Shown here piece after piece: positions 16,274-51,830 of a stretch of DNA of 64,000 nucleotides. Source of the DNA: Daphnia pulex (lineage: Eukaryota; Arthropoda; Branchiopoda; Diplostraca; Daphniidae). The stretch lies in assembly GCF_021134715.1 (NCBI RefSeq), contig NC_060026.1, positions 7,679,001 to 7,743,000 of the forward strand, read 5' to 3'. Under the pieces are notes generated by a model, which saw only the letters and a list, made by a program, of their open reading frames with translations, searched no databases and had not been told where the DNA came from. Within the stretch, counting starts at the first letter, position 1. Every line of letters starts with the position of its first letter. A program made the position numbers and the translations under genes.

Positions 16274-16867
16274 GCGAGCAACCGAAACTATAATTATCGA
16301 AAATCGTCGTTAAATTGGCAATTACTTTTCTGTTGTTTTACTGTTTTCAAGCAAAAATTTTCATTTGTCCAAGTGTTGGGAAATTGCTGAAATGGCATGC
16401 TTAAACTTGCAAACCTTTTCCAGCGACAATTACTTGGCAGCGGAACTTCTTCTGCTGTTTTACAGGTGAACTCTGACCTTCTCATCCTCCTCTGCCGTCT
16501 TCACTGGTTCCTGGAGCAACAACGCGCTGACTTCAAGACGCTGGTCATGATGGTAAGGTGCATTCTCGGCAACGTGTACTTGTTTTCTCTCATCTACTTT
16601 TAGAAAATATCTAAACCTGGGTTACGATCACAGACCTCGACTTCGATGAACCTGACTATTCTTACCACTCGTACGGACCATTGTTGAGAGCATTCCTTAT
16701 CCAGGGTCACCCCGTTGTTTGGTTTGTCTTGTCTTGACTTGTCTTGTCCAGGGCCATCACATATACTAAAGACCTAAAGACATTTCGTTCTTCTCTCACT
16801 GTGTACTCCCCTACTGATTTTAAACTTGGATGTTCTCCCAAAAAATTCTATTTTGTTTTTTTTTTAG

Positions 16868-29252: not shown

Positions 29253-30259
29253 GGGTTCCGGACATCTCGTACCCAAAAATTCTCGTACTCATTTTTTCAA
29301 CCATCTCGTACCAGAGTACGAGATGGTGGTACGAGGTGGCATCTGGCGGTAGAGAACAGTACCGGCTGGTACGAGGTGGCTGGCATAATCTTCCGGCTGG
29401 TACGAGTTGGCTGGCAGAAGTTTCCGGCTGGTACGAGATGACTGGCAGAAATTTCCGGCTGGTACGAGATGGCCGGCAGACATCTCCATTCTAGAGGGAG
29501 CCAAAGGGGAGTGCCGAGCTGGATGTCCGGATGAAGTCCGCCTTGAAGAGCGCCTAGCCAGTGACTGATAACTTAGTACGGCCGCGGCGACCTTATATAC
29601 TGCGGCTCGAGCATGCGCCACCTTGTGGTCAGTACGAGATGGCAGTACGAGATGGTCGATAGAAAGGCAACCAGCTAAGTATCCCAGCAATTATGCCATG
29701 GTATAGGATGATTATGCTTGTAATTATTCACCCTTCAATAAACTTTTTAAGAATTTTTTTATTATGTTAGCAGTGTATTTCATATTTTTCCTCAAACTTC
29801 TTTTAATGCAGGAATTATGGTTGCTGTATTGGTGAACCACACGATTGCAGACTAAAAAAGATCGTTTACTTTGTAAACATTTCGTGTGCTGCATAGAACA
29901 GGTAAAGATTGGTCCTAATTTGAATATTTTCATTAATGCAATACATTTTTCACAGAGCAGGCAACATCCCAATCCATCAGCTTCATGTTATACGGCCTCA
30001 AAGCTTGTATATACCAGACCAGAAGGTATTCCTCCAATACCTAATCATTGTACGTAAGCTCATTTTTCAGCTTATTATGGCATTCTTAACATTTCATTTT
30101 TACTTTGTTTAGATAAAGACTGAGAAAATGCTAGCCAGAAGCAGAAAAGGCATTATTGCCCTCGATTGTACTACATGCTCTTTCTTGGATTGTTTGTTTT
30201 CATTAGTTAACTCGTTGGCTGCCTCCAGTCTAAAAATTTGGTCTCGTTGCCAATTTAGT
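29253..30259 (+). repeat. Left terminal inverted repeat of the MULE
   Basis: Its outer 250 bases contain four to five imperfect copies of a roughly 30-base unit built on CCGGCTGGTACGAG(A/T)TGGC (29330-29480), likely transposase-binding sites. A CTTATATACTG block near 29592 is the complement of a TATA-like TATATAAGG facing outward. Confidence 0.88.
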
Positions 30260-31130
30260 TTTGGCACCATACTTTCCTGCCAGAAGCCATTCTATAGTGA
30301 TCTGTTGGAGGAGGTTGATCCAAAATATTCAAGTGAGACGCAACAAATATTATTTTTTTTAAGACATAACTTTGACAGATAGATTCTCATTATGATTTAC
30401 TCTTTTGGTTCTTTTCAGATTCACCGGCCGATTTGCACGAAATGTGGTAACCCCTTTTTGGAGATCGAGAGCCTTGCTGTGCTTATGCAAATGTTACAGT
30501 TCTGTTGATCGTTCGACATTCCAAGGTCTTTTTTCGGGACAGGTAAAGTTGAAAATTTAAGTGATCGAGAAAGTTTTGGATTTACTCTTACATTTTCTTT
30601 GCAGGCTAAAAGGAAGTGTGTGGCACTGGCAAATGATGCCAGATTATGACAAACAAATCAAGCCTAGACGCACATTTATTCCACACCCATCTCCTTATCC
30701 TTCGTGATCAGGTTGTAACCATGTCATATTTCCCTTTTTTAAAGCGCTGGTCATAATTCATCGTTATCTTGTTTATTGACAGATTACTCCTTTTCAAATC
30801 GACTTTGTCGGCAAGAAAATCAGTCTGGATTTCAGTTAGAACAAAAATTAGGACAAATCTTCAAGTAAGACGAAAAATTCTTATTGGTGTTTAAGCTTCT
30901 TTTTAATTTCTAATTCGTTTTTTACAGCACTCCATTTGTTACGTCCCTGAACTCGAGAGTTTACCGCTTCTGTGCTGTTAAAAAGCCGTGGTATTGTTTT
31001 CGACACAACAGCTTTGTTCTTTGATCATTGATGTTATTTTGTGTGATTTTGCGGTATGATTGTTATGCTTTGGTTCCAATAAATTGTTTTTTAGGCTTCC
31101 TAGCAATTTGGCTCTTACTTTCAATTCACA
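30260..31130 (+). other. MULE interior, upstream part
   Basis: Mostly non-coding with several possible small exons; one near 30421-30540 contains PICTKCGNPF, a CxxC pair, before a GTAAAG donor. I cannot link it confidently to the transposase. Confidence 0.35.
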
Positions 31131-31132
31131 GG

Positions 31133-33814
31133 GTAGTAAAAGGCGGCATGCGGCATGTTATTCATGGAATCAGAAATTCCCAGAAATCTCGTTACCCTCT
31201 CACCCTTCAACATGACCTGACCAAAGGGTATATAAAAAAAAAACATGATTCATTTTTTCAGTTCCTCCACATAACTCGTCAAGAATGGATTGCCTTACTT
31301 GGAAAACTGCCTTTAAAAAAGGAGATCAAAAATTTGCTTGTGCCAAATGTGCCAAATGGGAACACCGACGTTGTCACTCTTGTAAGAATATTTTTAATTT
31401 TATTTAGTTTTCTTATCTGTTGTTATATTCAGTATACTGTCTCAAAGTCTTGCATATTTTTAACTCATCGATTTATTGAAACTATTTTTCTTCAGGGATC
31501 AGCAAGGCTGACTATCAATTTCAAAAGGAAATGGGTTTTATTTGTTCCCTTTGTCGATTAAGAGATACACCGTCTCCCTTCTAGGACGTTTCTTCGGCAT
31601 AAAAAAAAACTGATCAATCTCGAACCAAGAGAAAAATCAACAAATCTACTCCATTCACGCCATCACCAGCACGGAAGAGAGCTAACCGGAGAGCACCCCA
31701 TAATAAAGCAACAAAATTGCCTGTTCGTGAAACCCTGCCAACTCCTACGCCAGAAGTTAGTGTTTCACTCCAGAACCAGGGGCTGATTGCTACCTCTGAC
31801 TTCTCGTTTACGGAATCTCTTCTGGATGGATCGTTCGGAGACCTTCAATTCTCCCCATCAGCATTCCAGGCGTTTGATGCGATTTTAGATTTGCCACCTC
31901 ACATTCCTGATGCCAATTTAGACATTAACTTTTCACCATCTGGAATGAATACCAGGTAAAATTGCTTAAATTCCTAGTGTTTTCAAAAAATAATTGTTCT
32001 TAATTCTAATTGTTTCTTCTTGAAAAGCGAAACTCGGGTAAACAGCACGCCAGTTGTTGATAGAGAAGCGGATTTCGTTATGGCCGAATTAGACTCTTCC
32101 TTCTCTCCATCACAGCGCCAGCAACCACCTACTACTGACCTTAGTGACACACGGTAATATATTTATATTGATGATTCTTTCAACTTCAATTACGCTTACT
32201 AATGCTCACTCTTTTTCCTTAAAGGTTGATCGAAGAAGAACGTGCTATTGCTCGCCACGCAGTCACCCCAGTTCTCGTTCGAGAGAGAAGTTTGTTGTCT
32301 CCCACGCCCACTGCACCCAACCCATTGATAGAACGTTTTGAAATTGTTGAGGGGGCATCCACAAGGGCAAAGAATCAGTTATTAGATGGGTTAGGTAATC
32401 GTTACGGCTTAAAGAAATCGGTTTCAACAAAGGGTGGGGTATTTACCTGGCTATGCACTAGACGAGGAAGAAAAAATGGAGTTTCATGTGCCGCCTACGT
32501 AAAGCCATTAGGGGACGTTTTCACAGAAGGTGCCACAGCTCATTGCCATGAACCAAATCCTGAACTAAATCTGAAGGTTCCCTTAGTCAAGCAAATTAAG
32601 GATGTTGCTCTTAAGAATCTCTTTGAATCAGCAAATGCTCTTGCGGAAGATCTTATTGTCCCGGTTGTAAAAGAAAACCCTTCAGCTATAATTCCACCCA
32701 TACAAAATCTTGCGCGTGCAGCCAACAGAAAAAGGGAACACGAAAGGCCCTTGCACCCAACGGATCTCTTTTTTGAATTGAAACCGGAACATCTACCAAA
32801 AGATTTTTATCGTGGTGAGGTAGTTGTGGTAGAGAAATGTCATCTTCTTTTTGCCACTGACGACCAGATCAAAGATCTTCAAAAAATGAGAAGGTGGTAC
32901 GTTGATGGCACTTTCCATGTAGCTCAGCTACCTTTTTCCCAGCTTTACAGTATCCACGGTTTTATAACAAAAGACGGCAAATCAAAGCAGATTCCCCTTC
33001 TTTATATAATTTTGTCCGGCAAAGAGCTGAGTGATTACGACGCCGTTTTAAAATAAATCAAAACTTTTTTCGATCCAGATTTCCCCATAGCATTAGAAGA
33101 AGTAGTTCTTGATTTTGAAACCGCAGTAAAGAGTGCATTTCTGCACAATTTTGAAGGCGTAAAAGCATTCGGTTGTTCTTTTCACTGGGTTCAAACCGTT
33201 TACCGGCACCTCAAGAGTCTTGGGCTTTCTTCCGCTTATAAATCTGATTCTAAAATCCAGGAAATAGTAAGGGAAGTTTTAAGTTTACCCATCATCCCAT
33301 GACAACAAATAGAAACCTGCTTCAAAGATTTAAAACAGCGATCGGAAGAGTTGCGTGCTAGCCTCGTGAAGCTCAACGACAAACGGGCCGAAGAAAATAA
33401 AGCGCCATTGACCGTAATTGATTTGAGACCATTCATGGATTACGTGGAAAAGACTTGGATAAAGAACAGAACCTGGCCACCCAAAACATGGAGCGTCTAC
33501 TTCCAAGAGGTCCGCACAAACAACGACGTTGAGGGGTGGCACCGGCGCCTCAATTCAAAAGCAACAAGAAACGGTGACTCAATTTTTATAATTTGGTGGG
33601 GCTTCTATTGAAAGAAGCGGAAAAGAACCTTGTCAAGAAACAACTCATTCAAGGAAAGACACTAAGAGCAGAGAACAAAAGTTACAAAAGAACCAGCGAG
33701 AGAATGAAGAAAATCCGGGAGAAATATAGAGCCGAGGAACTTACGGTGCATGAAATGTTGAAGTATTGCTCCAATACTTACAAGATGCCTAATGAGTATG
33801 AATTGCAGAAATAG
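31133..33814 (+). pseudogene. MULE transposase: PHD-like, FLYWCH and DDE domains
   Basis: Exons read 31133-31228, about 31262-31381 (FACAKCAKWEHRRCHSC), 31496-31590 (GFICSLCR), about 31600-31955, 32028-32153 and 32225-33814, with introns near 70 bases and matching phases for the last three. The two Cys-rich exons together resemble a PHD-type finger. A FLYWCH-like zinc segment follows (32340-32550: GLKKS, WLC, CAAYVKP, AHCHEP). The MULE catalytic core has D in WYVDGTF (32900), D in VLDFETA (33105), the CSFHW block (33178) and E in NNDVEGWH (33520). Frame faults: TAA at about 33053, TGA at about 33300, and shifts near 31600 and 33570. Otherwise well preserved, hence recently inactivated. Confidence 0.85.
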
Positions 33815-34028
33815 TAAAGTCTAAATTTTTCTTATTATATTGTTGCGATTGATTTGGTTCAAATCTAATATGTCGTAAACTGTTTTTCTCTTACCCAGAG
33901 GTGTATTTTCAGAATCTGTAACATGAACAAACATGTGTTAAACCAATAAATGTGTTTGCCTTTATATTGCAATAGTAAATTCTTTCTTAATCCATCACAT
34001 GGTCCAGGCCGTGGTGAGTTACTACAAG

Positions 34029-35032
34029 CTAAATTGGCAACGAGACCAAATTTTTAGACTGGAGGCAGCCAACGATTTAACTAATGAAAACAAACAATCC
34101 AAGAAAGAGCATGTAGTACAATCGAGGGCAATAATGCCTTTTCTGCTTCTGGCTAGCATTTTCTCAGTCTTTATCTAAACAAAGTAAAAATGAAATGTTA
34201 AGAATGCCATAATAAGCTGAAAAATGAGCTTACGTACAATGATTAGGTATTGGAGGAATACCTCCTGGTCTGGTATATACAAGCTTTGAGGCCGTATAAC
34301 ATGAAGCTGATGGATTGGGATGTTGCCTGCTCTGTGAAAAATGTATTGCATTAATGAAAATATTCAAATTAGGACCAATCTTTACCTGTTCTATGCAGCA
34401 CACGAAATGTTTACAAAGGAAACGATCTTTTTTAGTCTGCTATCGTGTGGTTCACCAATACAGCAACCATAATTCCTGCATTAAAAGAAGTTTGAGGAAA
34501 AATATGAAATACACTGCTAACATAATAAAAAAATTCTTAAAAAGTTTATTGAAGGGTGAATAATTACAAGCATAATCATCCTATACCATGGCATAATTGC
34601 TGGGATACTTAGCCGGTTGCCTTTCTATCGGCCATCTCGTACTGCCATCTCGTACTGACCACAAGGTGGCACATGCTCGAGCCGCAGTATATAAGGTCGC
34701 CGCGGCCGTACTAAGTTATCAGTCACCGGCTAGGCGCTCTTCAAGGCGGACTTCATCCGGACATCCAGCTCGGTGCTCCCCTTTGGCTCCCTCTAGAATA
34801 GAGATGTCTGCCGGCCATCTCGTACCAGCCGGAAATTTCTGCCAGTCATCTCGTACCAGCCGGAAACTTCTGCCAGCCAACTCGTACCAGCCGGAAGATT
34901 ATGCCAGCCACCTCGTACCAGCCGGTACTGTTCTCTACCGCCAGATGCCACCTCGTACCACCATCTCGTACTGGTACGAAATGGTTGAAAAAATGAGTAC
35001 GAGAATTTTTGGGTACGAGATGTCCGGAACCC
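34029..35032 (-). repeat. Right terminal inverted repeat of the MULE
   Basis: Complement of 29253-30259, with the same subterminal repeats (34810-34980). TATATAAGG near 34689 faces the outer end, followed about 25 bases on by a TTATCAGTC initiator-like site. The long open frame across it is a by-product of the repeats. Confidence 0.88.
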
Positions 35033-35041
35033 GGTGTAAAA
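35033..35041. repeat. 9-bp target site duplication of the MULE, right
   Basis: GGTGTAAAA, exact copy of 29244-29252. Confidence 0.9.
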
Positions 35042-35133
35042 CCATCACTGATTATCTACCGTTTCAAAGCATGACCAATCTCACCCATTCAGATCCGTAA
35101 TAGTCATATTCAATAAAACAAGTGTAAACAAAA

Positions 35134-35375
35134 TTGCAACAAGTATGCAAAAGCTGCATGTAATTACATAATATAGACGTGTTGCGGATGCTTAGTTGGA
35201 CTATTTCGTAATTTAGCCCAATCCATCTGGTGTATCGGTCCCCATCTTGGACTCTCGTAAAAACAGTTTTTTATTCCTGGAATTATGACAATAACAGTTT
35301 CATAGTTATTTATAATTTTAGCTTTTAGTTTAATTTATTGTGATTTGATACAATAATCACTATATCTGCTTCGTT
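35134..35375 (+). repeat. Left TIR of the Helitron-like element
   Basis: Starts TTGCAACAAGTATGCAAAAG and matches the complement of 47925-48165 at roughly 80 percent by eye, including a shared TGTAATTACA palindrome and CCAATCCATCTGG. The extreme end can fold as a small TTGCA/TGCAA hairpin. Confidence 0.8.
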
Positions 35376-35973
35376 TCTTTTACAAAATTGATTAGCGGGT
35401 GTTGTTTAAACTCGAAATCATCAGCTGACAGCTTCTAAACACTAAAAAGTAAGTAGAAGTGATATGGCATCTTTCGTGGCAGAGGTTTCCCTTTGTAATA
35501 CGTTTGAACTGTTCAAACTCTCTCATTATTCAAAAATTGTAGTAGCTTCATTTGCCGGTTTAAGTAAATGAGGCTACTGTACATCACTCCCAATCACTAA
35601 ATACCAAAGAAGTTTGGGTGGTAATTAAAAGTTGGCACAACAAATCTATCATAGCAGCACACTGTCATTGCACACCAGGGTAATAAAAAATAGTTAATAC
35701 AACCAAACTTTAAATTTGGTAATAATTGCTGTGATGTCGGGGCAGTTTTGTAATCAAATCATCATCATATGCAACGAATGTATACCTAGCTTGTACTGCC
35801 AAAGAGAAACAGTGGTTAGAAAAACATACAAAAAGATCACATCGTGAGTATTCATATTGAACAACATAATGATTCTACGTAATTGTGTCAGGTTCTCATA
35901 AATCAGCTGTGTCAACTAAAAACATCACGATTAAGATGGGTGCTGGAATCCCGTCAAGAAGATTAAAATTATC
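35376..35973. other. Non-coding leader between TIR and duplicated promoter
   Basis: No coding signal. AT-rich; presumably the upstream region of the THAP-Rep gene. Confidence 0.4.
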
Positions 35974-36343
35974 CCTGAGAGATTTCCTCAGGAAATCCGA
36001 GGGCCCACTCGTCTTTATTTGCTGATACGTCCCTTGGGAATACTTTCACTGTCCGGCAGCGCCATCTGTTGACCGTAAGTGGAATATCCTCTAGACCAGT
36101 TTAGTTTGTTTGCGATTCTTTGTCAGATTCATGTTGTCGATGTTGTTGATAGACAATACCTGAGAGATTTCCTCAGGAAATCCGAGGGCCCACTCGTCTT
36201 TATTTTCTGATACGTCCCTTGGGAATACTTTCACTGTCCGGAAGCGCCATCTGTTGACTGTAAGTGGAATATCCTCTAGACCAGTTTAGTTTGTTTGCGA
36301 TTCTTTGTCAGATTCATGTTGTTGATGTTGTTGATAGACAATA
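35974..36343 (+). promoter_or_regulatory. 185-bp tandem duplication, putative promoter of the THAP-Rep gene
   Basis: Two nearly identical head-to-tail copies (35974-36158 and 36159-36343), each starting with the palindrome CCTGAG AGATTT CCTCAGG and ending about 25 bases before the first ATG for the second copy. Each copy has GCGATTCTTTGTCAGATTC, with an initiator-like TCAGATT. Position and symmetry suggest a doubled promoter or regulatory site; not proven. Confidence 0.6.
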
Positions 36344-36368
36344 CTGATTTCTAGTTCTTTATTACATA

Positions 36369-39300
36369 ATGAAGCCATTTCGTTGTTTCATTTGTGGTTA
36401 TAAGACTTTTGATGACGACAAGAGTCAGTTACCGATGTTTGTAGTTACCAAATCTAGAATGCCATTATGGGAAAAAGTTCTTACTCGAAAAGGGTTGAAA
36501 GTGGGAATGAAGCTGTGTGGTGATCATTTTGACGATGCTGACATTCTTGGAGGAAAAGTTCTTTCTGGCAAATGTTATGCTTATCGAAGGCTCAGATTGA
36601 GAACTGGTGCTTTGCCGAAACATTATATAGGTTTTTATATCATTCGTTTAGATTCATAGTTCATGTTCTTGATTGTCTTTTTCGTGTGTTTAGATGGATC
36701 CACAGGTCAAGTGACTAAGGTCTTAAATTCTGATGGCCCACCATCTGTAAATCTTTGTTTGGGTAACGACACAGGTGTTTAAGTTGCTGAATTTCTAGAA
36801 GACATATTGTAATTTTTTTCCAGATCCATTGAATGATGACACTAGGATTGTACGTCATAATGATAGAAAAAAAGAGATACTTCAATCAGGAACTTCAATA
36901 GGTATGTCACTTGTTTTCTTATCATTAGAAAAAAGATTCTTTATTTACTTGATTGCAGTCTTATGTCATTTTCTTTTTCCTTTTGTTTGTATAGATGGAT
37001 CCGCGGGTAAAAAAGCTAAGGTACCCTCTTCTAATGGCAAACGAACTGTGAATTACAAAACTGTAAATCATCGTTTGTGTAACGAATTCGGTAAGAAAGT
37101 TGTTTGATTTGAAAGAGACAAGTTGTTTATTTGAGTTTTGTAGATCCATTGACAAATAAGAAGGCTGAGATCGCATCCTATAGAAATCAACATAGTGGTG
37201 CTTTGGAATCATGCAGTAAGGAAGGTATAGAAGATGTTTTCTAATGAAAGTAATTTTCAAATCATATAATTTACTTTATGTTGTTTTGCTAGAAATGTTG
37301 CGAGGAGAGAGTGAAGACAGTAAGAATGTATCCATGAAGGAGAGAAGAAAGGGAAGTTTTCACTCCAACATTGAGACAGGTGTGTAACTTGTTTCCTTAC
37401 CATAATTAGAGGGACAGTAATCAGTTCTGTTTTCTGCAGTATGCAGATTACATAACTTTAAGCAAGTTTATTTTAATGCTAAACAAAGAATTTTGGTTGT
37501 CATCGTTTTCCTAGATATGTTGCCGAGGAAAACTATAGACCCTAAGGCTTCCTCCAATGGTGGAATGGAAAAAGTGACTATTCAGGCAAATAATGCAAAA
37601 GGTATGTATTTTTTTACATAGTAATAAAAGCGAAAAACAGAAAGCCATTTTTTTACTAGTATGTGAGTTACAGCTATTTAAACTTTTATTAATTAACTAA
37701 CAATCATGTTTTTCTCTGTAGATGGAGAATTAGATTTCAATTATGTGAAAGTCAAAAGACTTAAAATGAATCACAATGCCTATCAACAGAGATACAGTCC
37801 CCTCCATAAGTATGGGATCACCCCGCGCCGTTCCATAAGGCGGCGTGTATTTTTCTAGTTGGTTTTTCGGGTGGTAAAAAGTGAAAAAATGACATAAATT
37901 CACAAAACTTGGAATTTATGTCATTTTACCTCTTTTGTTTTGTCTGAATTTTTTCAGATTTTTTCGTTCATGGGATAGGCCTCTAAAAGTGGCTCCGAAA
38001 GTATCGGATCACTCCGACGCCAACCATGTTATCTTATGACCCGAACTTGTTTTTCACATAGCTTTTTATATATTTAATTTTTAAGAAGGAATTTTTATTT
38101 TCAAACCGTGTATACACTACCCTTTCATAAACTAACTGTGAGTTTTGCATAATGATCCGAATTTTTTTCGAATTTTCCCAGATTTATTCGTTTCCCAAGT
38201 TTCTGAAATCAGAGACTACAGAAGACTTCATTTACGGTTTACAACCTCTATCAGCTGGCGTAGGCAGGAAAATTAGTGTCGTTTTTATACGCCCCTTAAG
38301 TAAAAAAGGTAGCAGAGCGCCAGTGGTGTATAGAAACGACTACTAATTTTCCTGCCTACGCCAGCTGATAGAGGTTGTAAACCGTAAATGAAGTCTTCTG
38401 CAGTCTCTGATTTCAGAAACTTGGGAAACGAATAAATCTGGGAAAATTCGAAAAAAATTCGGATCATTATGCAAAACTCACAGTTAGTTTATGAAAGAGT
38501 AGTGTATACACGGTTTGAAAATAAAAATTCCTTCTTAAAAATTAAATATATAAAAAGCTATGTGAAAAACAAGTTCGGGTCATAAGATAACATGGTTGGC
38601 GTCGGAGTGATCCGATACTTTCGGAGCCACTTTTAGAGGCCTATCCCATGAACGAAAAAATCTGAAAAAAATTCAGACAAAACAAAAGAGGTAAAATGAC
38701 ATAAATTCCAAGTTTTGTGAATTTATGTCATTTTTTCACTTTTTACCACCCGAAAAACCAACTAGAAAAATACACGCCGCCTTATGGAACGGCGCGGGGT
38801 GATCCCATACTTATGGAGGGGACTGTACTCTCGGGCAAAGAAGAAAAGCAAGAATGTCAAGGTAGTCCTTAATAGTTACAGTGAGCCACTTTCGTTGGAA
38901 ATGTGTCAGCCACCAATAGCCGAACAGTTACTCCATTTTGAATCGGATCCCATCGCTGCACTGATGAACCTCGTAACAAATACGGGGTTGGATCGGTTTC
39001 GAGATACTGATCGTTTGATGTATTGATGTGTTTGATAATTGGAGTGAAGCTGCCTTGGATCCGAACCCACTTCCTGATTACTTGAATAATCTAGCCCAAG
39101 AAATAATTAGTAACGTTACAGAAGAAGATCTTGCCGTGATTTCTGAAACGTTTCTAAGTATTTGGGATATTGAAGCACAAATGTTGGCATGTGCTAGTTG
39201 CGGAATAAAAGATTTTGATATGGGTTCATCAAAATTCCACACCGTTTCCCTTGATCAACTAAGCAAACTGCTCTTTTCCAAACAAGAAATTATTGAATTG

Positions 39301-42300
39301 GAAAATATCTCTGAAGAATATAGGTATTTGTTTCTTCATTCTTATCATGTCATATTTGCGTTCCATAGTAACCAGTGGTTGACTTTCTTTTCTTTAGATC
39401 AGTTGTTAGTTACTATCACTCACCAGTTAGTAGAAAATATTACTACCTTCATCGAGAATTTGTCACACAAAAGAAGCAGCTAACTTCTGATGGAGAGGAC
39501 ACCGAAACTATTCTTTGCAATGAATGTTTCCAAGCTGTGATTCGTCAAAACAAAGTGCCTACTTATTCGCTTGCGTCAGGAATCGATTATGGCAATGCGG
39601 ATCGCATTTTTTTACCGAAATTAACACTAGCTGAAGAACACGTCATTGCTTTAGCACGAATCTTCATCGTGATAATTAAATTGACTGGATACCAACATGG
39701 CGAACGGCAATGTGGAAAACTAGGCCACGCCATTGCTTATGCACAATACGGAGAGCATCTTGAAGAAATGATAAATGAAAAAAGACGAAATAGAACTAAC
39801 CGGAAATTCCCTTACATTAACGATTTTTACGATGCGCTGAGCATCGTTTTCGTTGGATCTCATTTGCAATGGGCAGCACTTGTAGCTGACAAGCACCACA
39901 GAATTTGGCACCCTATTCAAGTCCGTAGCGAGGTCATCTTCTTGTGGTTGGGCGCATTGAAACACTTCAACTCACGTTACAAAGACATTGTCATTGACGA
40001 TTCACAAGAAATGAAGATGGCCTTAACCAAAATTCCAGATGAATTAATATATCGTGCTTCAATTGCGGAACACGATACAGAGATAAAAATAGATCAAATC
40101 GTTTCTCAACAGTCGTCTGATGTAGATGCAGCCAACGACCAAGACACAGAAACTACGATCGAAGACTCCAGCGGAAAACCAAATCTCTATCCCATGTCTT
40201 TCCTTACTAGAACTTCACCAACCAACTCGAATGAACTGTCCTCCAGTGAGGCAGCATTGAAAGGTATCACATAGCTCAACGTAATACTTCCTCATTCCTA
40301 TTGTAAATACATGCATTTTCTTACTAGGAATATCGGAAACCCTGGCTCAACCTGATGGATTTCGATACCTCAGACAAAGCAAATACAAGAAGGGCTGGAA
40401 TGCATTCAATGAGGAAGATTTTGAAACCGCGCCTAAATTAACTAATCAATCGAAAACTCAAAAATGGAGTTATGACCATTAAACCGAAGATTGTATCACC
40501 ATTAAGAAGGTGAACCATTAAATGAATTTGAACAAAACGATCACTTGATGTATTCAGCTTTCCCCCATCTCTTCCCTCTTGGTAGAGGAATAAGGAAAAA
40601 TGGAAGCATACCTATTAAAGATATGCGACACATGGAATTGCAATGGCATGGAAAATTTGCTAATTGCATGCGATTTCTCTTTCTGCTCTTCGACCAATGG
40701 CAACGACATATCACGTGCCGATCAATTCAGACTACCGTTAGGACAAACAAATTGTCAATGGAAACATTCAGTCAAATGGTTTCGGATCCGAAATTTCTCA
40801 GCCAATTGGAAGAAGCGAAGAATAGGCCCAATCATCCCAAATCACTGAAACTTCTTTCAAAAATCACGCCTCAATTGTCTTTAATCAGTAAAAAAGTTCC
40901 ATATTCAGTAGCAGCAAGATCTGCTACCGTAGGTCATCTCATGAGCATGGTTCGCTATTTTGGACCACCTTCCATCTTCTACACCCATTCTCCAGATGAC
41001 ACTAACGGATTACTCAATTTACGATTTACTCTTCCTATGACAAACAATTGGTCTTTTCCGGCAACAGAAAGCGGTTTTGCCGAAGCCATGCGTAATCACC
41101 AGACAGATTTCCATGGCATCTCATTTAGTGAATCGGCAAAAAAAAACAATGTTAGCCCTTGGTCCAATTTTCGCTGCCCGAATGTTCCAAATCATGACTG
41201 AGGCTTTCTTCGTTCATATGTTGGGAACACCACCTGACGGAACAAGCAAAAAAAAGTATTCCTTTATCTAAACGTCAAGCAGGAATATTCGGTACACCAG
41301 TGGCGTCCTTCGGCTGTACAGAAGAACAAGCTCGTGGTTCTCTTCACATGCATATTTTGTTTTGGGGTGGATTAACGCCTAACCTACTGCAAACTACAGG
41401 TGGCATCCCGGGTTTGAAAAGATACATTGCCGAGGCAATCAACCGTGTGGTTTCAGCACAACTAGATCCGACTATTCATTTGAAACACTTATTACGAGAT
41501 TTGAACAACGAGAAACCACCTCATGCTGCGTTTTTCAAACCACATCATCCTGTCCGCGAGAAGCAGCAATACATTCAAGATTTCCAACGAACCGTCGACT
41601 TATGCAACATACACCAACATGGTCTCACATGTTTCAAGAAAAAGATAGGGAAGACATGCTGTCAACGAGGACGTGGCGTACATCTACGAGAGGAAACTGG
41701 TTGCTTGCAAATCGTAGCCAAGAAAACCGATCCAAGTCAACCAGAAGTGTCTTTTGAAGTACTTCCTTTCATCCTTCCACCAGACGAGGCAGTGACATCA
41801 AGAAGTAATTTTTCACAACTACCTGTTGCAATGCGAGATAAGCGAATGATAATGTACTTTTTAATTCGACCAGCCATTCTACCACCATTGCCAACAGAAG
41901 ACGGTCGCAAATCTCCACCTACATTGATTGAAAAAATGGTTTTACCATCAGAATTGCAAGAACAATTTGACTTGTTAGCGGAGGAAGACAAAAAAAAAGT
42001 TTGCAAAACTTTGCAAAAACGAAACGCAATGAGTGTCGAATACAACCCTCTAGCCTCTGCCGTATTGGGATGCAACACCAATGCAGCACTCCTTGGCAGT
42101 GATGTGCAAAGCAAGAGCGCATTGTGTTACTTAATAAAGTACGTTAGCAAACCTCCGGCAGAATTGGCACATTCTCTACCGCTTCTTTACCACGCCAGAA
42201 AAACCATCGACCAGTATCCATCGAAAGCAGATGACAGCGGCAACATCATTCGTACTGGAATACACTATCTTAACAAAATAGCTAACGATCTGAGCGGCGC

Positions 42301-45300
42301 GATTGAAATATCGGGACCAATGGCAGCAGCTGCTATTCTCGGCATGCCTGCTGAGACAAGTTCAGAAACTTTTTGGGTGACCTATATACATGCAGCAATT
42401 TCTTATGTAACTGAACACCCAGAAACTTCAAGTTCGTGTCCAAAAAGGCGAAACGAAGAATTTGCTGATCTTTGGGGAAATGAATTACCTAGAGAGCATC
42501 AAGACGAAGAAATCAACGAAATCAACGTCGCGAATTCTATCTACAATGAAAGCCGTCAAGGAAATGATGAATCAAGTGACAACGAAACAACCATCCAAGA
42601 GGACACCTCAAATCCAGACAAGGATCCTAACATCTTCGAGGAAACGTTCATTTAAAAAGATCCCTTGATTCTTGGATCAACGCTTCAACATAGAGACGAA
42701 AACGTTAATTCTACAGCAAATATTTATGTCACACCCCGGAAAATTATCGCCGTACCTCAACATCTTCACTACGCTTATAGAGGAACTCAATTACACGAAC
42801 TCAGTCTTTACGAGTACACAGCTCTAATTGACATTGTTCCATGGCGAGAAAAGAAGGGCACAAAGTCAGAGGGATACAACGAGCAAAGTGAATCAGGAAG
42901 ACCAGCCAACGGAACTTTTGATTTCACGAACGCTCATCCCCTACACGGTAACAAATAGCTAATTCGCTCCCATATCACGAAAACATCAACACTAACGTAT
43001 GCTGATTTTCCATACTTCATTTCTCTAGGTTCATACATACAAAGATTGCGATCGAAAACGAAGGTTCCAATTTTAGTGGGACCACCACCAGCACCACCAG
43101 CACCGAAACCGTCAACATTAACCGACGCCTGGCGATCGCAAGCTCGAAAATTTGCGAATCATTTCCTTATACTTTATCGACCATGGAAAACGATGACTAC
43201 AGATGGCGGAACACTTCCAGGACCAACGACATGGACTGATTTTTGTTCGTTCATGTATAACTTGGTAAAAGGAAACAACAATGGAGTCACGACGTGTTTG
43301 AATCGTGTCCGATCACAATGGATTCACCACGCAGCTCACGGATTACGTATGGCAGGTAGCGATCAAACAGCTGTCTCGAAATGGCGACATGAGTGTGCCG
43401 ACCGATGGAACGACACTGATAATCACTCACTAGCTGGAGTTAATATGCGAGACAAAGGAGATTTTCAAGCCAATTCCACAAAAATTCAAGAAGAAATGGC
43501 AGCCATCGAGGCTCAGAAAAACATCGACCTTTTACGAAACAAAGCTGCTGCTGACGACCTATTTCATCGTCCTAAGAATAGCTGTGAGGAATACTATCAA
43601 GCAACGAAACTAGCCTTAGATCATCTCTTTCGACCGGCACAACGCAAAACAAGCCATTCAAACACAATGACGAAAGCTAAACAAATAGTTCAGCCTTCAA
43701 ACAGAGTAGATGAATTGGCTGGAACAGTGTTTCTTATGAAATTAGATTCAGCTTACCAAGAAGCAAAAGAAACCAAAAAAGATACCGTTTCCAACAAACC
43801 ATCTGACTCCAAAGCACCTGCAAGTAGTCGGCCATGTCTAGCAGAGGAACTTAACGATGAGCAACTGAAAATCTGGACAACAGTAAAAACGTTCTTCTCT
43901 GATTTAAGAAAATTCAAAGATGGAAGAGGATCTCACCCGCAACCATTCCGCATCCTAGTGCATGGAGGACCAGGAACCGGCAAATCTTTCTTAATAGGAA
44001 GCATCCTCCAAGCAGCATTTGATGTCAACTTAACTGTCGCCTGTATTGCTCCCACAGGAATTGCAGCCAGCAAATTACCAAACGGGAGAACAATTCACAA
44101 TTTCTTCTCCTTTCCAATTTTCCACGACACCAGAGTATACCTATCGAAACCTAATCATTTCAAGCTGGCTACACTTCAACAACAAGCTAAACATCAATCA
44201 CTGGCATTGCTGGTTATCGATGAAATCTCCTACGTCGGACCAGAAATGCTGGCTCAAATTGAACTCAGGCTTCGACAAATAATGGAAAACGATTTACCGT
44301 TCGGGGGAATTGCTCAACTATACCTGGGAGACTTCTTCCAATTTCCGACAGTATCTCCAACTGAAACTCTTTACCACGCTTTGCTAAACATGTCTACTGA
44401 AGACATCGGACAAAATCCACAAACTACATTCACTAGTCCTGCCAAACAAGGAGCAAGATTGTTTGCTACCTTCCAAAAAGTAGAACTTACCCAACAGATG
44501 AGAGCAGCCAAAGATCCCGATCACATGTCTTTCCTCAATCAGCTCCGTACGTCAGCAGCAAAAGGAAGGACCAAGACATTTGAACCTCTCGAAAAACTAA
44601 AAGTACTGACGAGACAAGATATCAAAAAAGAACCGGATTGGATGAACGCGCCCAAAGTAGTCACAAGCAACGAGGAACGTTATCGAATTAACGAGCATCA
44701 ATCGTCTATTTTTGCCAAACAGCAAAACTGGCCGCGTATAATTTGGTACCAACCAATACTGGGTCTAGTGGCTAACGCCATTGATCAGGATCAAGTAAAT
44801 TATCTATACGCAACTTGCCACAGACTGAAAGGCATTTTCGTTCACGGAGCTCCAGGATTTCTTACCGAAAACATTAATCCCACACACGGACTGACAAACG
44901 GAACGGCAATCACCTACCACTCCTTAGTCTTATATCCGAGAGAAGACAGAGAGCGTGTGTTGACAGCCATTTGTAGTAGCCGAGAAGTTATCGTCCTCCA
45001 ATACAATCCCGTCTACGTACTAGTAAACGTAACAAATTCCAAACATGAACATTTCGTCGGAATCACGACAGAGAAAGATCAAGTCTTCATACCGTTACCT
45101 CAGACGCACATCAGTAAAACGTTCAAAAGTCAAATTCCAAGCAAAGATGGGAAAATTAGCCTTCAAACGAAAAGTCACGGAGTGGAACTAGGATACGCAA
45201 TTACTCTTCACAAAATCCAAGGACAAACTTGCAAACGACTAATAGTCGATCTCAACTTTAGACCTTTCAAACCACAAATTTCTTTTCCAGGATTTTATGT

Positions 45301-45673
45301 CGCTGTGTCCCGTGTTCGAAAATCGCAAGATTTAAGAATCATGCCGATACAACCAAACACTTCCAATTTAAAATGCATTAAAAGTTTAACACCACCTGAG
45401 AAGCTGACAACTTGGCTAACGGGATACGACAACGACGGATTTTGGGACCCAAGGCGGGTACCACTAACAAAAAAATACGACTCTAAGGAAGAAACAACTA
45501 CGACTTCAACAAGCAGAAAATCAACAAGAAAAAGGAAAGCCACGGAACAAAGTAACTATCTCTTTAAACAAAATTCACCGAGAAATCATTTTCATCTAAT
45601 GATTGGACTTAGCCAATTAGGTAACAAACAACAAGTACCGGAATGTTCCAGGCAAAAAAGAAAAAAAAAGTAA
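36369..45673 (+). CDS. THAP finger + Rep (HUH) + PIF1 helicase, multi-exon transposon gene
   Basis: Exons: 36369-36630 (THAP: CFICG, KLCGDHF), then six mini-exons 36694-36774, 36824-36901, 36995-37090, 37144-37224, 37293-37379 and 37515-37601. Next is 37722-39323 (split by a MITE at 37795-38825), then 39398-40263, 40328-42947 and 43029-45673. The N-terminal Helitron (DUF6570-like) region has LCNECFQAVIRQ and RQCGKLGHAIAY; a conserved block follows (YSAFPHLFPLGRG). The Rep HUH motif is GSLHMHILFWGG (41339) and the Rep tyrosine block is CYLIKYVSKPP (42124). The helicase has Walker A GGPGTGKS (43966), Walker B LLVIDEIS (44212) and motif VI HKIQGQT (45210). Rolling-circle replication and transposition are inferred from the family. 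Frame changes lie near 39025, 40480-40510, 41150, 41250 and 42655, several at A-runs. Some may be sequencing errors; otherwise recently dead. Confidence 0.85.
37793..37794. repeat. TA target duplication, left of foldback element 1
   Basis: TA precedes CAGTCCCCTCC; the partner TA is at 38826-38827. It interrupts the codon for Tyr in YQQRY of the THAP-Rep gene. Confidence 0.8.
37795..38825. mobile_element. Foldback MITE 1, 1031 bp, Tc1/mariner-type ends
   Basis: Starts CAGTCCCCTCCATAAG and ends with its complement, flanked by TA on both sides. Arms of about 487 bp (37795-38281 and 38340-38825) are nearly perfect complements around a loop of some 58 bases. CAGT...ACTG with TA duplication is typical of Tc1/mariner-mobilised elements. 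No coding capacity. Near-perfect arms mean a young insertion. Confidence 0.9.
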
Positions 45674-45890
45674 AGACATCTAGTTCAGGCAATCAAAATG
45701 GGGAAAAAAAGCTGTCAAATCCTCACTTCGAATAAGGACAACATAGATTTCACTAAGAGTTCTCAGATAACCCCGTGTCCTTTTCAAAACAGACTAAATA
45801 AAGAGAGACAATTAATTAAAGGAAAGTTTAAAAAAAAATTATTTAATCAAGAAAAATTAATACACTGCAATTCCATTCACAACAAAACCA
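45674..45890. other. Convergent 3' region between helicase and RPA-like genes
   Basis: About 200 bases with AATAAA-like motifs on both strands (for example AATAAAGAGA on plus). Probably the shared 3' flank; no separate gene is supported. Confidence 0.4.
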
Positions 45891-45899
45891 TAAAAATCT

Positions 45900-47231
45900 T
45901 GATTCCCCATTAGAAAAGAAGGCCGAGAGTAGCCTAGTAAAGGACACACATAACTTCGGTGTTGTAATAAAAAAAACAAAGAAGACATTCAGGTAAGTTT
46001 TAAACAAGTTTCTGAATCTTCTCTGAACGTGATCACTTTTCCTTTTAGTTTCACCTACATCTTTGAATTTCTTCGCCTTCCAAAGAGAAACAACTCTAGA
46101 TTCAGTAGAATCACACTCAACTTTCGCAATCTTACAATTAAAAAAAAAAGAAATAGATTTAAAAAATGGTAAACGTATCAAGAATACTTTAAAGACGGAA
46201 GCCTTCGACGTCTGAATATATTCCCGCTGCAAGTATTCATTACAAGTAGCATCCTGAATCGAAAGTTTGTAATAAAATTTTCGCAAATCCAAAAGACTAA
46301 CGAGCTCAATATCATCGTTCCACAGAGTCACTTTCACCTACCAAACCAGACACGAAAGTTTAAAAAAAAAAAGAAAACAAATAAAAATAAAGCGGAAATT
46401 CCATTCCAGTACCGTTTCACCAGGCTTCATCGAAGCGTCAAAAACTTCGAGTTCAAGTTTACGTAATTCACCTTTTCGAACGTCCACAACGCAACCAGCT
46501 TTATAAACAATGACTTCAATATCTAACATAAAAAAGAAAAATAAATGAAAAGAAAAAAAAAAAAAAACAATAAAAAAAGATACCAAAGAAAGTGCCATGA
46601 GGAAGATCGCGAACTTTCTTCAAATCGTATTTCACAACTTTCAACCTTGGGAAAGTATCATCTTGTTCCAAATGCTCAACCTACGAATAAAAACAAAAAC
46701 TAAATAAATCAAAACAAAAAAGGAGATTTCATTTCAAACAAAGATCATAGGCTACCTCACTCTCCTTTGCCAAAATAACTTCAAATTTTAGAGGAAAAAT
46801 ATTATTTGGATTCTTGGCAACAGAAACACGAGCATACTCAATAGAAAAAATTTTCCCTTCTTCAACAATCCCATAATACTTCTCAGCATCTTCATAAAAT
46901 GCCTTAACTTTCAATAGACCAGATGAATCCAGAAGACCAAAATAAAACATATTACGATCTCCTTTAAAGGGAAACAAACGGGAAATACGAGAAACTCTGC
47001 CTCGTATTTTCCATCTGAAATATAACACATTACGAAAACAAATCAATAAAGAACCAGAAAAAAAATTCATACATATATAAATTACCTACGAAGATCAGGA
47101 GAAAGTTTATTCACATCAATAAAAACCTCTTTGACGACAGATTGACCAGACACAGGCTCTTCATTAACCTCTGTGCTCACTTCTTTACCAGAAACGTCGC
47201 TATCCGATTCAGAATCACTATCACGCAGCAT
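45900..47231 (-). CDS. RPA70-like single-strand DNA-binding protein, transposon-borne
   Basis: Start ATG at 47231 (MLRDSDSESDSD). Exons 47086-47231, 46756-47014, 46584-46680, 46413-46522, 46188-46337 and about 46050-46130, all with GT-AG borders and consistent phases; the C-terminal end near 45900-46050 is uncertain. Exons 1-2 give an OB fold like RPA1 DBD-A (VNKLSP, WKIRGRVSRIS, FYFGLLDSSGLLKVKAF, GKIFSIEYARVS). Exons 3-5 give linker and DBD-B-like sequence (ELRKLELEVFDASM, VKVTLWNDDI). No stop in the first five exons. RPA-like genes are well known from plant Helitrons. It likely coats the displaced strand during rolling-circle transposition. The acidic N-terminus replaces the RPA70N domain. 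Confidence 0.82.
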
Positions 47232-47924
47232 TCTTGACAACAACTAAAGAGCAACTGCGAACGGAACAAAATTCTAACTCACAATAACGAAGACAAAGCG
47301 ACGACACAGTCAATAGACCAACGACCACTAAAAAACTCAACCAACGTCGACACTTCGAAAAAGAAATAGCTACATGGAAAACGACATCGTACAGGGACAC
47401 GACAAAAAAAAAGAAAAACCTAAACAAATCTCGAAGGCAACCACGCCAGTGGTCTGGTTTCAACATCCACAATTCCAATAATGAATGCCGAAGAATTTGT
47501 TCATGCATTGCATTAAATTGAATTACAAGCTTGTTCCTCTTTATTCAGTTAAGTAGTATGTCCTTATATTGAATATGCTGATAAATTCCTTCCATCAGAT
47601 CTTCCTATTTCAATATCTAATATTTATAACTCATCATTCATAAACAAACCACCATAAAGGCAGAGATTGATAAAATTCTGAAAGATAATGTATTATTATC
47701 AATAATAATAAACATAAATAATTAAGTATTATCAATAATTCTAGCTAGAATAGAATAGTTTTTTGGTACCCTTTGATGCAACAAACATAAAACATAATGA
47801 ACAAATTAAATAGTTGGTGTAGCACGAACTGACAGAAAGCAAAACGAGAAAAATTGAAGAAGCGTTTGATTTTCCGTGTAAAATATCCTTTTTTAAACAT
47901 TAATTTAAAACAAATAAAAGAGAT
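47232..47924. other. Upstream region of the RPA-like gene
   Basis: Presumed promoter and leader. A Phe/Val-rich open frame at 47221-47508 overlaps the leader and has no recognisable domain. (TAATAA) runs lie near 47695-47720. Nothing else seen. Confidence 0.4.
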
Positions 47925-48165
47925 ATGGTGATTGAAAATTATTGTAATAAATCACAAATAAATTCAAATAGAAGCTAAAATTATAAGTAACTATGAAATT
48001 GTTTTTGTCATAATTCTAGGAATAAAAACCCGTTTTACGAGAGGCTAAGATGGAGACCGATACACGCCAGATGGATTGGACTGAATTGCGAGTTAGCGCA
48101 ACTAAAAATCCGCAAAAACTCGTCCGTATTATGTAATTACATGCAGCATTTGCATACTTGTGCAA
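47925..48165 (-). repeat. Right TIR of the Helitron-like element
   Basis: Complement of 35134-35375. Ends TTGCATACTTGTGCAA, which folds as a short hairpin at the very terminus. Flanking bases GGTGCAGG do not repeat the left flank. Confidence 0.8.
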
Positions 48166-48529
48166 GGTGCAGGTAATTCTTTTTCTGATATTTTATAGTA
48201 TTTAAAGATTTTTTAAAGTTATTTGCAATAAGAATCTTTATTGTTTGGTGTTATTTGACTAGGTTGTATTGAGTGGAACCTCGAGTGATTTAGCCCTTCA
48301 TTTGCTGAATGGATTTTCCTAAATTTAACCTTCTTTTATATTCACAAAATTATTTCTGCACACCAACCAAACCTACCAAAAACCAAACCCATTAGAACGA
48401 GAGAATGAACCACAATTATTATTATGATTTATTGAAATTAATATTAAACGGACCAGACTTCTTCCATTGGGTGAATGTTTCTGGAGGGTGTAATTCAGAA
48501 AGTTAATTGAAGTTAGTTGCAAAGGGTTG
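48166..48529. other. Non-coding interval
   Basis: AT-rich flank between two Helitron-type elements; no feature recognised. Confidence 0.4.
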
Positions 48530-50160
48530 CAGGGCTAGTAAACGCAAGTGGCTATACATGTTCAAACGTATGAAAGACTGAAAGAGCAACATAAAGATCA
48601 TGATAAACTTGTAAAGGTTTGAAGAGGCGTTAATTTATTTCCAATATCAACCGAATACATGTTTGGCCTTGCATTTTATGGATAGTAATAGCAAAATCCA
48701 AAACTACAGCATGTGCCTTCACTTTAACTGTTAAACAGTTATTTTGGCTTTCATAGGGAAATAAATGTTATGTTTTTCTGCCTGAGATTTCAGTTTTACC
48801 GAAATAACAACTTTATCTTTGAACAAAGATTTATGTTGAAATAAATCTTGATCCAAATTAGGAACCTCGTGTATATATGGTGGTGGAAATTTTAGCAAGA
48901 TATCTGACACGTCATTATTTATCACCATTTCCATTATACACTGTGTAAGTCTTCTAGTGGACTCAAAGTCATTGAATGATAAATAATTGGGGTCTCATTT
49001 GATAGTCCAAGATACGGATTAATATTCTGCGTATTTAACCTTTGAAAGTCAGTAGAAAATATTTTTACATACAACTTATGCTGTTGTTATTAGATTACCT
49101 GGGGTACCAGCTACAAAACAACCCATTAGTGCGGGATAGTTTTTGTAAATATGTTGATGGATGGGAATTGATGATCTGGGCCAGATGAAGCTCTGCGTTT
49201 TATTCTGCAAAGACCAGCATTTTGATTGCAAGTTTTTAATGAGAACACGTTTTGCTAGTGACAACAACAGGATCGAGTCCATTGCCACAATTTGTCTTCT
49301 AGGATGTCTTTGTTTGTCAAAATCTTTATTAAGGCGAAGTGTTTATGCAGGATGCAGAATTTATGTTGGAACACCCAGGATAAGGAGTTCTCATTTTATT
49401 AAGCATCGCAGTGTGAGTAGCGTCTTCTGAAGCCCTCATCTGTTGTGAAAGCTCAAATTTTATTAATTGGCTAAAAAGATGACCTCCTCTAGTTCTTTGA
49501 TCAGGGTCACCATTTTCAATTTCTTTTCGGTCTACGAGAAGTTTTATAGTTACACTATAGAGATTGTAAGGTTCGGCAACATGTGGTAACTGATAAAAAT
49601 CACCCATTAAAACAACGGTGATCCCACCAAAAGGAGATTTTGGTTCCATTATAGTTGTCAAAGACGGTTGTCAATTTGGCCAAAAGCTTCATGTGAAATA
49701 TATGATATTTCATCAATTACCAGCAATATAAGCTTGGACCTGGTAAGACGGGAACGAAGTTGTTTTAATTTATCCATTGACAAGTCTGGGACAAAAGTCG
49801 ATTTATTGAAGTCATTGCTGATTGATTGAAGTGATTATTGTGTATGGTTCTACCATTATGCAAATAAGCAGCTGCAATACAAAAAAAAACAATGCACATT
49901 ATATGCTGTACTCCAATTCTTCTGCAGCATTGTTTATGCAGTGTGTCAAAAACGATTTTCCCGTCCCCGGTCCGCTATGAACAAGAATATGAATAGGATT
50001 CTGAATTTCATATCCATGCAGATCTGCTTCGCGTTTTGTGTAGACAATTATGAAACGGTTAATAGCATGTTAATTTCAGGAAGTGACTAATAGCTGACAT
50101 GAATAGTTAGTTGAAGTAAAAATTGAGCAATTTATCGCTAATTAACAAATATTTGCCGAA
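48530..50160 (-). pseudogene. Second Helitron-type PIF1 helicase, decayed
   Basis: Minus-strand helicase blocks in order: Walker A PGTGKSFLTHC near 49950-50000, Walker B LLVIDEISYISHEAFGQ near 49680-49735, FGGITVVLMGDFYQLPHV (49600-49661), FELSQQMRASEDATH (49410-49460), then FAITIHKMQGQTCIRL near 48640-48710. Stops and frame changes separate the blocks. The sequence differs clearly from the helicase at 43029-45673, so this is another, older family lying in opposite orientation. Confidence 0.85.
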
Positions 50161-50514
50161 CTAATTACACTCATGCTGTCGTTCCATCTAGAGATAAAAA
50201 GTAGAAAAAAGATTACAGTCAAATATATCTGAAAATATGTTTTGCAGGAATCAAAAACTAGATTTTGATTCTTATTCAGTAGGTTTTCATCAGCCACGTT
50301 ACATTTGTTACTGAAGGTACTTGGTTAATCTGATGTAATTAGTACATCATCACTCACATTTAGCGTTAGCTCATCAATGTCTTCATTTTCCTGTATGCAA
50401 AATATACCAAATTAAAAAATTAGGCGATCTAAAATATATGTTAGAAACTTTATAAATTCCTATAATTGATATAGATTTTCTTACCTGAAAGTTACAACTA
50501 AATTTTTGTAGAAT

Positions 50515-51830
50515 TTTCAGAAATATCTGGTTCTAACTCTGGATATGCATGAATCATCCTTTGTGCTTCAGTTAAATTATGCAAAGGATCGAAATTTTCA
50601 AACTCTATACCGCCATGAATTTTTTCAAGAGCCGTTTCGGTCACTTTGAGATTTTCTTTAAAATTTGAATGACTCGTTTGGTCATCTGCAGCAGCTTCAG
50701 ATCGTAGGTAATCAATGGCTAATTGCGCTGTTTCAATCGAAAAGGTTTCTTCCTCATGTACAGTGGGTACCTAAAGTATCCGTACGGCTGAGAGGAGCAG
50801 TACGGAAAACGCGTTTTTCAAAACGCTCCCATAAATTGAATTCTCGTTGGAATGCAATAAAATTTTTTTGTAAGGTTAAGATTAGGGTGGGGTTTCATCT
50901 GATTTTTTTTGGGAATTTTTCAACAACGCGATATGTGGTTTTTATCGCGTTGCGAAAGTATCCGTACGGCAGAGAGGCCTAGTAGGGAAATGGGCTTACT
51001 TTGGAGGCCTCTTATTCGGTAAATAAGTAACATTAAAGGGTGGGAAAGTTCTTAAAAAAAAGAGCTGCATTAGCTCTATATGTGGTCATAAGATCACATT
51101 TTTTAAGTTTCATTTATAGTAATGAAATCAAAAATGAAAACACGAATTATAAGTTTTCCGTTTTCTTCCCCTCGATTCCCCATCACCAGTGTTGCCATAT
51201 CAAAAAATATTTACCCTTTCTCTTTCTCCCTCTTCCGTCCAAGAGAAGAAAGAGATTTTGGGATATGGCAACACTGGTGATGGGGAATCGAGGGGAAGAA
51301 AACGGAAAACTTATAATTCGTGTTTTCATTTTTGATTTCATTACTATAAATGAAACTTAAAAAATGTGATCTTATGACCACATATAGAGCTAATGCAGCT
51401 CTTTTTTTTAAGAACTTTCCCACCCTTTAATGTTACTTATTTACCGAATAAGAGGCCTCCAAAGTAAGCCCATTTCCCTACTAGGCCTCTCGGCCGTACG
51501 GATACTTTCGCAACGCGATAAAAACCACATATCGCGTTGTTGAAAAATTCCCAAAAAAAATCAGATGAAACCCCACCCTAATCTTAACCTTACAAGAAAT
51601 TTTTATTGCATTCCAACGAGAATTCAATTTATGGGAGCGTTTTGAAAAACGCGTTTTCCGTACTGCTCCTCTCAGCCGTACGGATACTTTAGGTACCCAC
51701 TGTATATGTTCCTCGATGTATTCCAATCTTCCAATTGGTGTCGAAGAATCAGGTACTATATGGGGAATATAGTACGGTACTGTTAGTAAGAAGACCATGA
51801 CCCATATTCAAGATCCAGCGTAACCGAACG
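50515..51830 (-). pseudogene. N-terminal piece of the second Helitron helicase, split by a MITE
   Basis: On the minus strand PDSSTPIGRLEYIEEHI (about 51715-51770) is followed, beyond the foldback element at 50761-51702, by ETFSIETAQLAIDYLRSEAA and ELEPDISENSTKI (50515-50757). It reads as the region just before a Helitron helicase core and probably belonged to the relic at 48530-50160. Confidence 0.6.
50761..51702. mobile_element. Foldback MITE 2, 942 bp, TA-flanked
   Basis: Begins CAGTGGGTACCTAAAGTATC and ends with its complement; TA at 50759-50760 and 51703-51704. Arms of about 445 bp surround a loop of some 50 bases (51211-51260). The motif AAAGTATCCGTACGGC occurs twice in each arm, at the end and about 190 bases in. 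Different family from MITE 1 despite the same design. Confidence 0.9.

Follow-up and report, generated by a model that had tools for sequence, protein, structure and literature searches.

A stretch of the Daphnia pulex genome 64,000 nucleotides long, referred to here as the window (C10:7679001-7743000; the genome searched comprises 133.19 Mb in 13 contigs), raises the question of whether a transposon with rolling-circle enzymes can be bounded by ends of the cut-and-paste type. Within it, inverted repeats enclose a chain of exons that encodes a THAP-type finger, a DUF6570 domain, an HUH Rep and a PIF1 helicase open reading frame (ORF), together with a convergent RPA70-like gene. We lean, if only slightly, towards the view that these parts form a single damaged HUH-Rep/PIF1-helicase transposon of rolling-circle type, about 13.0 kb long, which belongs to a divergent Helitron-like clade, carries THAP and RPA and ends in terminal inverted repeats (TIRs). 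The components of this view differ in strength: there is good support for a Rep-helicase (Rep-Hel) transposon variant that is fused to THAP, bears RPA and falls in a divergent clade, and the interpretation of the TIRs as the element's own working ends is favoured.

Coding content between the inverted repeats

The coding chain opens on the plus strand with a THAP exon (36369-36630), preceded by a tandem duplication of 2 x 189 bp (35971-36344, plus strand, 97% identity) that lies between the left TIR and the THAP start codon. The exon contains the pattern C-x2-C-x40-C-x2-H, an HF pair and a GALPKHY box, residues that we take to be a THAP-type C2CH motif. Six symmetric phase-1 mini-exons follow within 36694-37601 (36694-36774, 36824-36901, 36995-37090, 37144-37224, 37293-37379 and 37515-37601); their sizes of 81, 78, 96, 81, 87 and 87 bp are all multiples of 3 and, taken with their introns (window 36660-37720), they are partly tandem duplicates of about 70% identity. 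With exon 8 (37722-37793, plus strand) this makes eight exons from 36369 onwards that connect across GT-AG junctions, all in phase 1, and the THAP-type finger and mini-exons are linked in phase by these splice signals to the N terminus of Rep-Hel. Exon 8 is split by a foldback miniature inverted-repeat transposable element (MITE) of 1.03 kb (37794-38827), which is inserted at a TA within the coding sequence and has near-perfect arms of 329 and 162 bp, complementary at 99-100%. This MITE and three frame breaks in the Rep part leave the copy damaged. Both kinds of interruption were missed in an earlier reading of the letters alone (the original prediction), whose account of inverted repeats around a THAP-Rep-PIF1 chain and a convergent RPA70-like gene is otherwise confirmed by the alignment of the repeats, the Pfam matches and the in-phase splicing. 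A search of solved structures with the THAP exon gave 18 matches, among which no chain is named THAP, and a separate protein search, limited to proteins of about 1390-4410 aa, returned two matches, neither with a THAP domain. When 52 Rep matches in the genome were compared with 137 THAP matches, no THAP lay within 10 kb of a Rep (nearest 15.3 kb), a comparison of low sensitivity because the THAP exons of the window and of the C5 locus described below are both missing from the match list.

Downstream of the MITE, the Rep N-terminal region (38828-39324, one frame break near 39020) and the DUF6570 exon (39398-40262; PF20209, E=6.6e-20) lead on the plus strand into the HUH Rep (40506-42652), which is divided between different frames at 40506-41198 and 41198-42652 and holds an HMH motif and a CYLIKYVSK tyrosine motif. 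Helitron_like_N (PF14214) matches it in two pieces, again in different frames (9.9e-10 and 2.8e-4), and its HxH and YxxxY (Y..KY) motifs align with Helitron-type proteins. A linker homologous to that of family B, a second family introduced below, occupies 42656-42955 on the plus strand, and is followed by a PIF1-like helicase in an intact frame of 904 aa (42959-45670, plus strand; PF05970, 1.3e-20), which also matches the Helraiser structure 7lcc (1.2e-12). The element has both hallmarks of Helitron-like elements in the broad sense, an HUH Rep with a tyrosine motif, though broken in frame, and a PIF1-type helicase after it. The database protein P0001 is 98% identical over 80% of the helicase, and P0002-P0018 form a family at 32-52% identity among the best 120 of 294 proteins (8000 candidates scored); within the same best 120, proteins with both Helitron_like_N and PIF1 reach an E-value of only about 1e-12. 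The helicase alignment was also scanned against viral contigs, giving 72 loci from 162 pattern matches with a best E-value of 2e-21 at 35% identity, a result not used further. The Pfam scan covered 10 of the 35 ORFs of at least 80 aa that overlap 33000-51000, plus one further ORF, and recognised among these no transposase of another type, including DDE-type, a result that supports the original interpretation.

The RPA70-like gene (46026-47231, minus strand) has, in its predicted splice model, about six exons, OB folds corresponding to DBD-A and DBD-B (DNA-binding domains A and B) and an altered C terminus; the OB fold is recognised by Pfam at 5.4e-8. An annotated Daphnia pulicaria protein, P0121, is 99% identical to this model over 96% of the query, with a different C terminus, and a D. 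pulex protein model is 91% identical. The RPA1 identity was scored on P0121 rather than on the window's own gene (TIGR00617, 1.2e-24; PDB 1jmc, 1.3e-9), and P0121 aligns with the DBD-A and DBD-B chains of solved RPA70. Five RPA-like paralogs (C3:5147257, C4:7325387, C12:4301576, C5:2981915 and C5:2985944) share 36-43% identity with the element's RPA and, at the DNA level, about 75-92% with one another; some 7 kb is common to the copies on C3 and C4, with a weak ankyrin match in one ORF.

Relatives and class membership

A genome DNA search with the Rep region gave 21 matches, which include the element itself, members of family B, two short matches at C8:1.958 Mb, and matches on C5 at C5:5238492-5239684 (70% over 1.2 kb), C5:5239691-5239791 (77%) and C5:5239793-5239883 (80%). 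The C5 matches belong to a relative at C5:5.237-5.243 Mb in which a THAP exon, the last mini-exons and Rep stand in the window's order at 70-80% DNA identity, without the MITE. Its THAP exon, at 5.24 Mb, is homologous to exon 1 of the window (61% over 56 aa; 71% over 378 bp of DNA, window 36358-36710) and its last mini-exons are 70% identical; stops in THAP mark the copy as degraded, and the 2.7 kb past its helicase fragment gave no further helicase or RPA match. Because this degraded copy has the same THAP/mini-exon/Rep order, the THAP-Rep association predates the insertion in the window. The proposal of a Helitron-related lineage with its own THAP module that gained long TIRs is therefore partly supported: THAP is inherited with Rep at C5, and the gain of the TIRs stays conjectural.

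Family B, the best-preserved relative, was located in four copies (C10, C9, C8 and C5). Its C10 copy (C10:15159972-15176640) shares the Rep-Hel clade and DUF6570 with the window, at 51-60% identity over DUF6570, Rep and helicase, falling to 47% in short N-terminal pieces, but differs in its ends, its N-terminal module and its cargo. The element begins with TCAGAG after an A and ends with GGGGCTTGA before TT, in unrelated flanks (C10 and C9 ends, two of the four copies, compared), and the last 151 bp of the C10 copy are repeated alone 1.9 kb away. At its left end lies a papain-family protease fragment (L115:1043-1213, minus strand, at C10:15.160 Mb; PF00112, E=2.6e-14) that resembles Helitron gene capture. 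The putative N-terminal exon, an upstream ORF with no Pfam match, encodes a zinc-type module that is not THAP and that shares 39% identity, over 142 columns, with the N-terminal part of a 528-aa ORF on C3; that ORF lies within a 3.2-kb element (L031:1503-4659) bounded by inverted repeats of 257 bp at 98% identity. A search of solved structures with the family B protein P0024 led nowhere. Within one genome, the same Rep-Hel clade thus carries either THAP (window, C5) or a different, TIR-element-like zinc-type module (family B), and on the strength of these two cases it is likely to be a pattern of this clade that Rep-Hel proteins and TIR-type elements exchange their N-terminal DNA-binding modules.

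In a 47-row helicase tree the window is one of 7 rows that group at 100/97; the 34-row side to which they belong is split (99/96) from 13 rows holding cellular PIF1 proteins and P0087, P0099, P0110 and P0116. A 12-row tree of Rep plus helicase groups the window with family B, P0024 included (99/98), and splits the wider clade at 100/100 from P0087, P0099, P0110, P0116 and L119 (C2:11.909 Mb, same genome), which we take from its motifs to be a canonical Helitron; both trees are unrooted and have long branches, among them that of L119 in the 12-row tree, where L119 and P0116 may join falsely, and neither has labelled Helitron2 or Helentron reference rows. The Helitron-related character of the Rep and helicase is borne out by the Pfam domains and these trees. 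The tree comparison that the original prediction proposed separates the element from the canonical-looking L119.

P and Kolobok elements carry a THAP DNA-binding domain, are bounded by TIRs and encode a DDE/RNase-H-type transposase; the element lies between TIRs and may share the THAP domain too, its exon having the signature residues but a score under the Pfam cut-off, and no such transposase was recognised in the 10 of 35 ORFs scanned. Among Helitron-like elements, canonical Helitrons such as the canonical-looking L119 and the HeliDaph families resemble the window in their Rep and PIF1 domains and Helitron_like_N; four HeliDaph families are described in a D. pulex survey that aligns their termini with those of other species (PMC2884549). 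Canonical ends are 5'TC and 3'CTRR at a target between A and T, with no target-site duplication (TSD) (PMC4067079), whereas the window, if its TIRs are the ends, reads ACAAGT...ACTTGT with TGCAA on both sides. Helentrons of mites and Culex share the HUH Rep, the PIF1 helicase and an arthropod host, and some are reported with an accompanying RPA gene, which in mites is separate and has DBD-A and DBD-B (PMC4067079). They differ in their subterminal repeats and in a TT target that leaves no TSD and, like canonical Helitrons, have short terminal motifs and no target duplication (PMC4067079); the window has long TIRs, a TGCAA repeat and an N-terminal THAP, and the apurinic/apyrimidinic (AP) endonuclease that marks the C terminus in Helentrons is not among the 14 families listed for the 904-aa ORF. 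Plain membership in the Helentrons was rejected for the lack of a recognised AP endonuclease and of a TT target. Helitron2/FoHeli elements of fungi have inverted repeats at their ends and a Rep-Hel without endonuclease, but their TIRs are asymmetric and, at 13-16 bp in one FoHeli group, short (PMC5148889), and come with terminal hairpins, whereas those of the window are symmetric and about 260 bp long, with single-strand terminal folds no better than shuffles (z 0.57 and 0.05); plain Helitron2 membership was rejected on these grounds. The earlier impression that such a combination had not been described in an arthropod goes too far for RPA, whose presence in arthropod Helentrons is already published; for the remainder, no report of a THAP-Rep fusion or of long-TIR Helitrons was found among titles and abstract openings, a search that covered few subscription journals.

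The inverted repeats as ends of the element

The inverted repeats align between 35134-35382 and 48165-47906 at 81.7% identity over 262 positions, and a chance inverted repeat was rejected. Because the last aligned bases are part of flanking TGCAA, the outer edges are placed at 35139/35140 and 48160/48161, giving a left TIR at 35140-35382 (plus strand) and a right TIR at 47906-48160 (minus strand). Both ends begin ACAAGTATGCAAA, or more fully (A)CAAGTATGCAAA, the left TIR reading (A)CAAGTATGCAAAAGCTGC, and from position 20 both contain a 12-bp palindrome, ATGTAATTACAT (35158-35169 and 48131-48142). From the outer edge inward, identity per block of 40 columns is 93, 70, 85, 88, 88, 72, 57 and 55%. 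Immediately outside CAAG...CTTG, TGCAA stands on both flanks as a direct repeat (35135-35139 and 48161-48165), a candidate TSD; flanking matches of at least 5 bp, with a boundary play of +-2, arose in 0.8% of 20,000 random point pairs (window 20000-60000). The outer 35-mer, allowing up to 3 mismatches, occurs exactly twice in the genome, once forward and once in reverse, and its reversed control does not occur. A genome DNA search with the right end gave eight matches, the two ends themselves and six other loci at 76-84% identity. One of these solo sequences lies on C10 about 0.7 kb from a relative of the MITE (C10:10705253-10705806, 87-88%). In the 10-20 kb around each of the six there was no Rep, helicase or RPA match apart from one of 20 aa at C10:10.705 Mb, which is MITE sequence, and on their own contigs these loci are separated from the closest Rep match by 242 kb to 2.6 Mb. 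Since the 35-mer is confined to the two ends, and the six loci have neither the outer end nor a Rep nearby, the outer ends belong to this element alone, and the subterminal part is older sequence that has been dispersed.

Several results weigh against the reading of a THAP-bearing, TIR-bounded transposon. The THAP exon retains its signature residues but scores below the cut-off of PF05485 (E=0.0013; 19.9 bits against 23.9). At the six other loci the alignment covers the subterminal part of the TIR with its outer end missing, and because the outermost sequence is found nowhere else and these loci have no Rep nearby, the TIR-bounded form is based on one copy, which is broken. The search for further copies that the original prediction called for found no second TIR-bounded copy in this genome, still less several copies with common ends and TSDs, and the companion check for empty sites, a query of the joined flanks in the same genome, gave eight matches, none an uninterrupted site. 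TIRs at the C5 relative are unconvincing: on its left side 69 and 90 of 100 shuffles reached the score, and on its right 51 and 3 of 100, with one weak blastn match there in the expected orientation (49 bp, E=2e-4). The C10 copy of family B has no long TIRs (the sole inverted repeat found in it, a pair of 162 bp, is internal), no RPA match and matches to the window TIRs of at most 25 bp, and neither it nor the C9 copy has a TSD; Rep/helicase copies that end at other boundaries without long TIRs had been named in advance as evidence against the proposal, and family B fits that description, though it is a different family. Finally, a divergence of 18% between the TIRs fits oddly with an intact helicase frame.

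These results bear on three alternatives. One is a nested insertion, in which a THAP-Rep-Hel element of rolling-circle type, with or without RPA and with TIR-less ends, lies inside a separate non-autonomous TIR element that was mobilised in trans. Family B agrees with it, since its ends are TIR-less and both copies compared are inserted between A and T without a TSD, as do the TIR-like sequences at six loci without a Rep nearby, and the C5 relative and the window share nothing detectable upstream of the THAP start codon. Against this, no inner Helitron-type ends were recognised, by inspection rather than with a dedicated search tool, little noncoding sequence separates the TIRs from the genes (about 0.7 and 1 kb), and the outer ends occur nowhere else in the genome, with no non-autonomous copy bearing both ends found; we consider nesting unlikely. 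A distinctly less probable account makes the TIRs secondary, either as two copies of a dispersed, promoter-like repeat of about 200 bp or as an inverted duplication of one end, flanking a Helitron-like element. It draws on the solo subterminal stretches of about 100-230 bp at 76-84% identity, but both copies in the window have the same private outermost part, the same end base and the same 5-mer flank.

That the THAP finger, the RPA or both are host genes or bystanders beside a Rep-Hel fragment is very improbable indeed. THAP domains are common in this genome, with 137 matches, and the five RPA-like paralogs are spread over four regions, in none of which the 20 kb retrieved contain a match to Rep or helicase. 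The element's RPA, however, sits between Rep-Hel and the right TIR, and THAP as an unrelated neighbour was rejected on the THAP/mini-exon/Rep order repeated at C5 and on the phases and splice sites that connect THAP to Rep in frame.

If the TIRs are indeed the element's own ends, the parts suggest a mode of action. The two coding units, THAP-Rep-Hel and RPA70-like, each begin about 1 kb or less from a TIR and read towards each other, converging tail to tail near 45.7-46.0 kb, and the TIRs for this reason probably carry both promoters, such that they would serve at once as ends and as promoters of both units. THAP may hold the ends, the HUH Rep would nick them, and the PIF1 helicase would unwind the DNA and peel off one strand, which the element's own RPA could coat; for Helitrons and Helentrons, RPA has been proposed to bind single-stranded DNA as the element transposes (PMC4067079). 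Insertion would then leave a 5-bp duplication, and the 5-bp repeat, if a true TSD, would imply a staggered target cut, unlike Helitrons. A further step, which we put forward tentatively and regard as doubtful, is that the element stands for a new transposon group among eukaryotes, with an HUH Rep/PIF1 protein fused to a THAP end-binding module, its own RPA, long TIRs and a target-site duplication, thus joining rolling-circle enzymology to ends of the cut-and-paste type. Were a Rep-Hel with a swapped-in THAP, long TIRs and target duplication to prove real, the end-recognition part would be exchangeable between rolling-circle and cut-and-paste transposons, and Rep-directed end recognition would become testable.

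Neighbouring sequence

Near the RPA paralog on C12, ORFs (L036:5719-8633, minus strand; C12:4.307-4.311 Mb) resemble what we take to be parvovirus-type capsid proteins, perhaps of an endogenous viral element. In the window itself, a decayed second helicase of the same clade lies just past the right TIR in the opposite orientation (48464-50015, minus strand). Upstream, inverted repeats of about 1009 bp and 98.5% identity (29253-30261 and 34026-35032) bound another element, which ends about 107 bp to the left of the repeats studied here and contains an ORF at 32223-33056 with no Pfam match. Positions 50-16846 are taken up by a long array of tandem units that are nearly identical (96-99%), at offsets that include about 2.5 kb.

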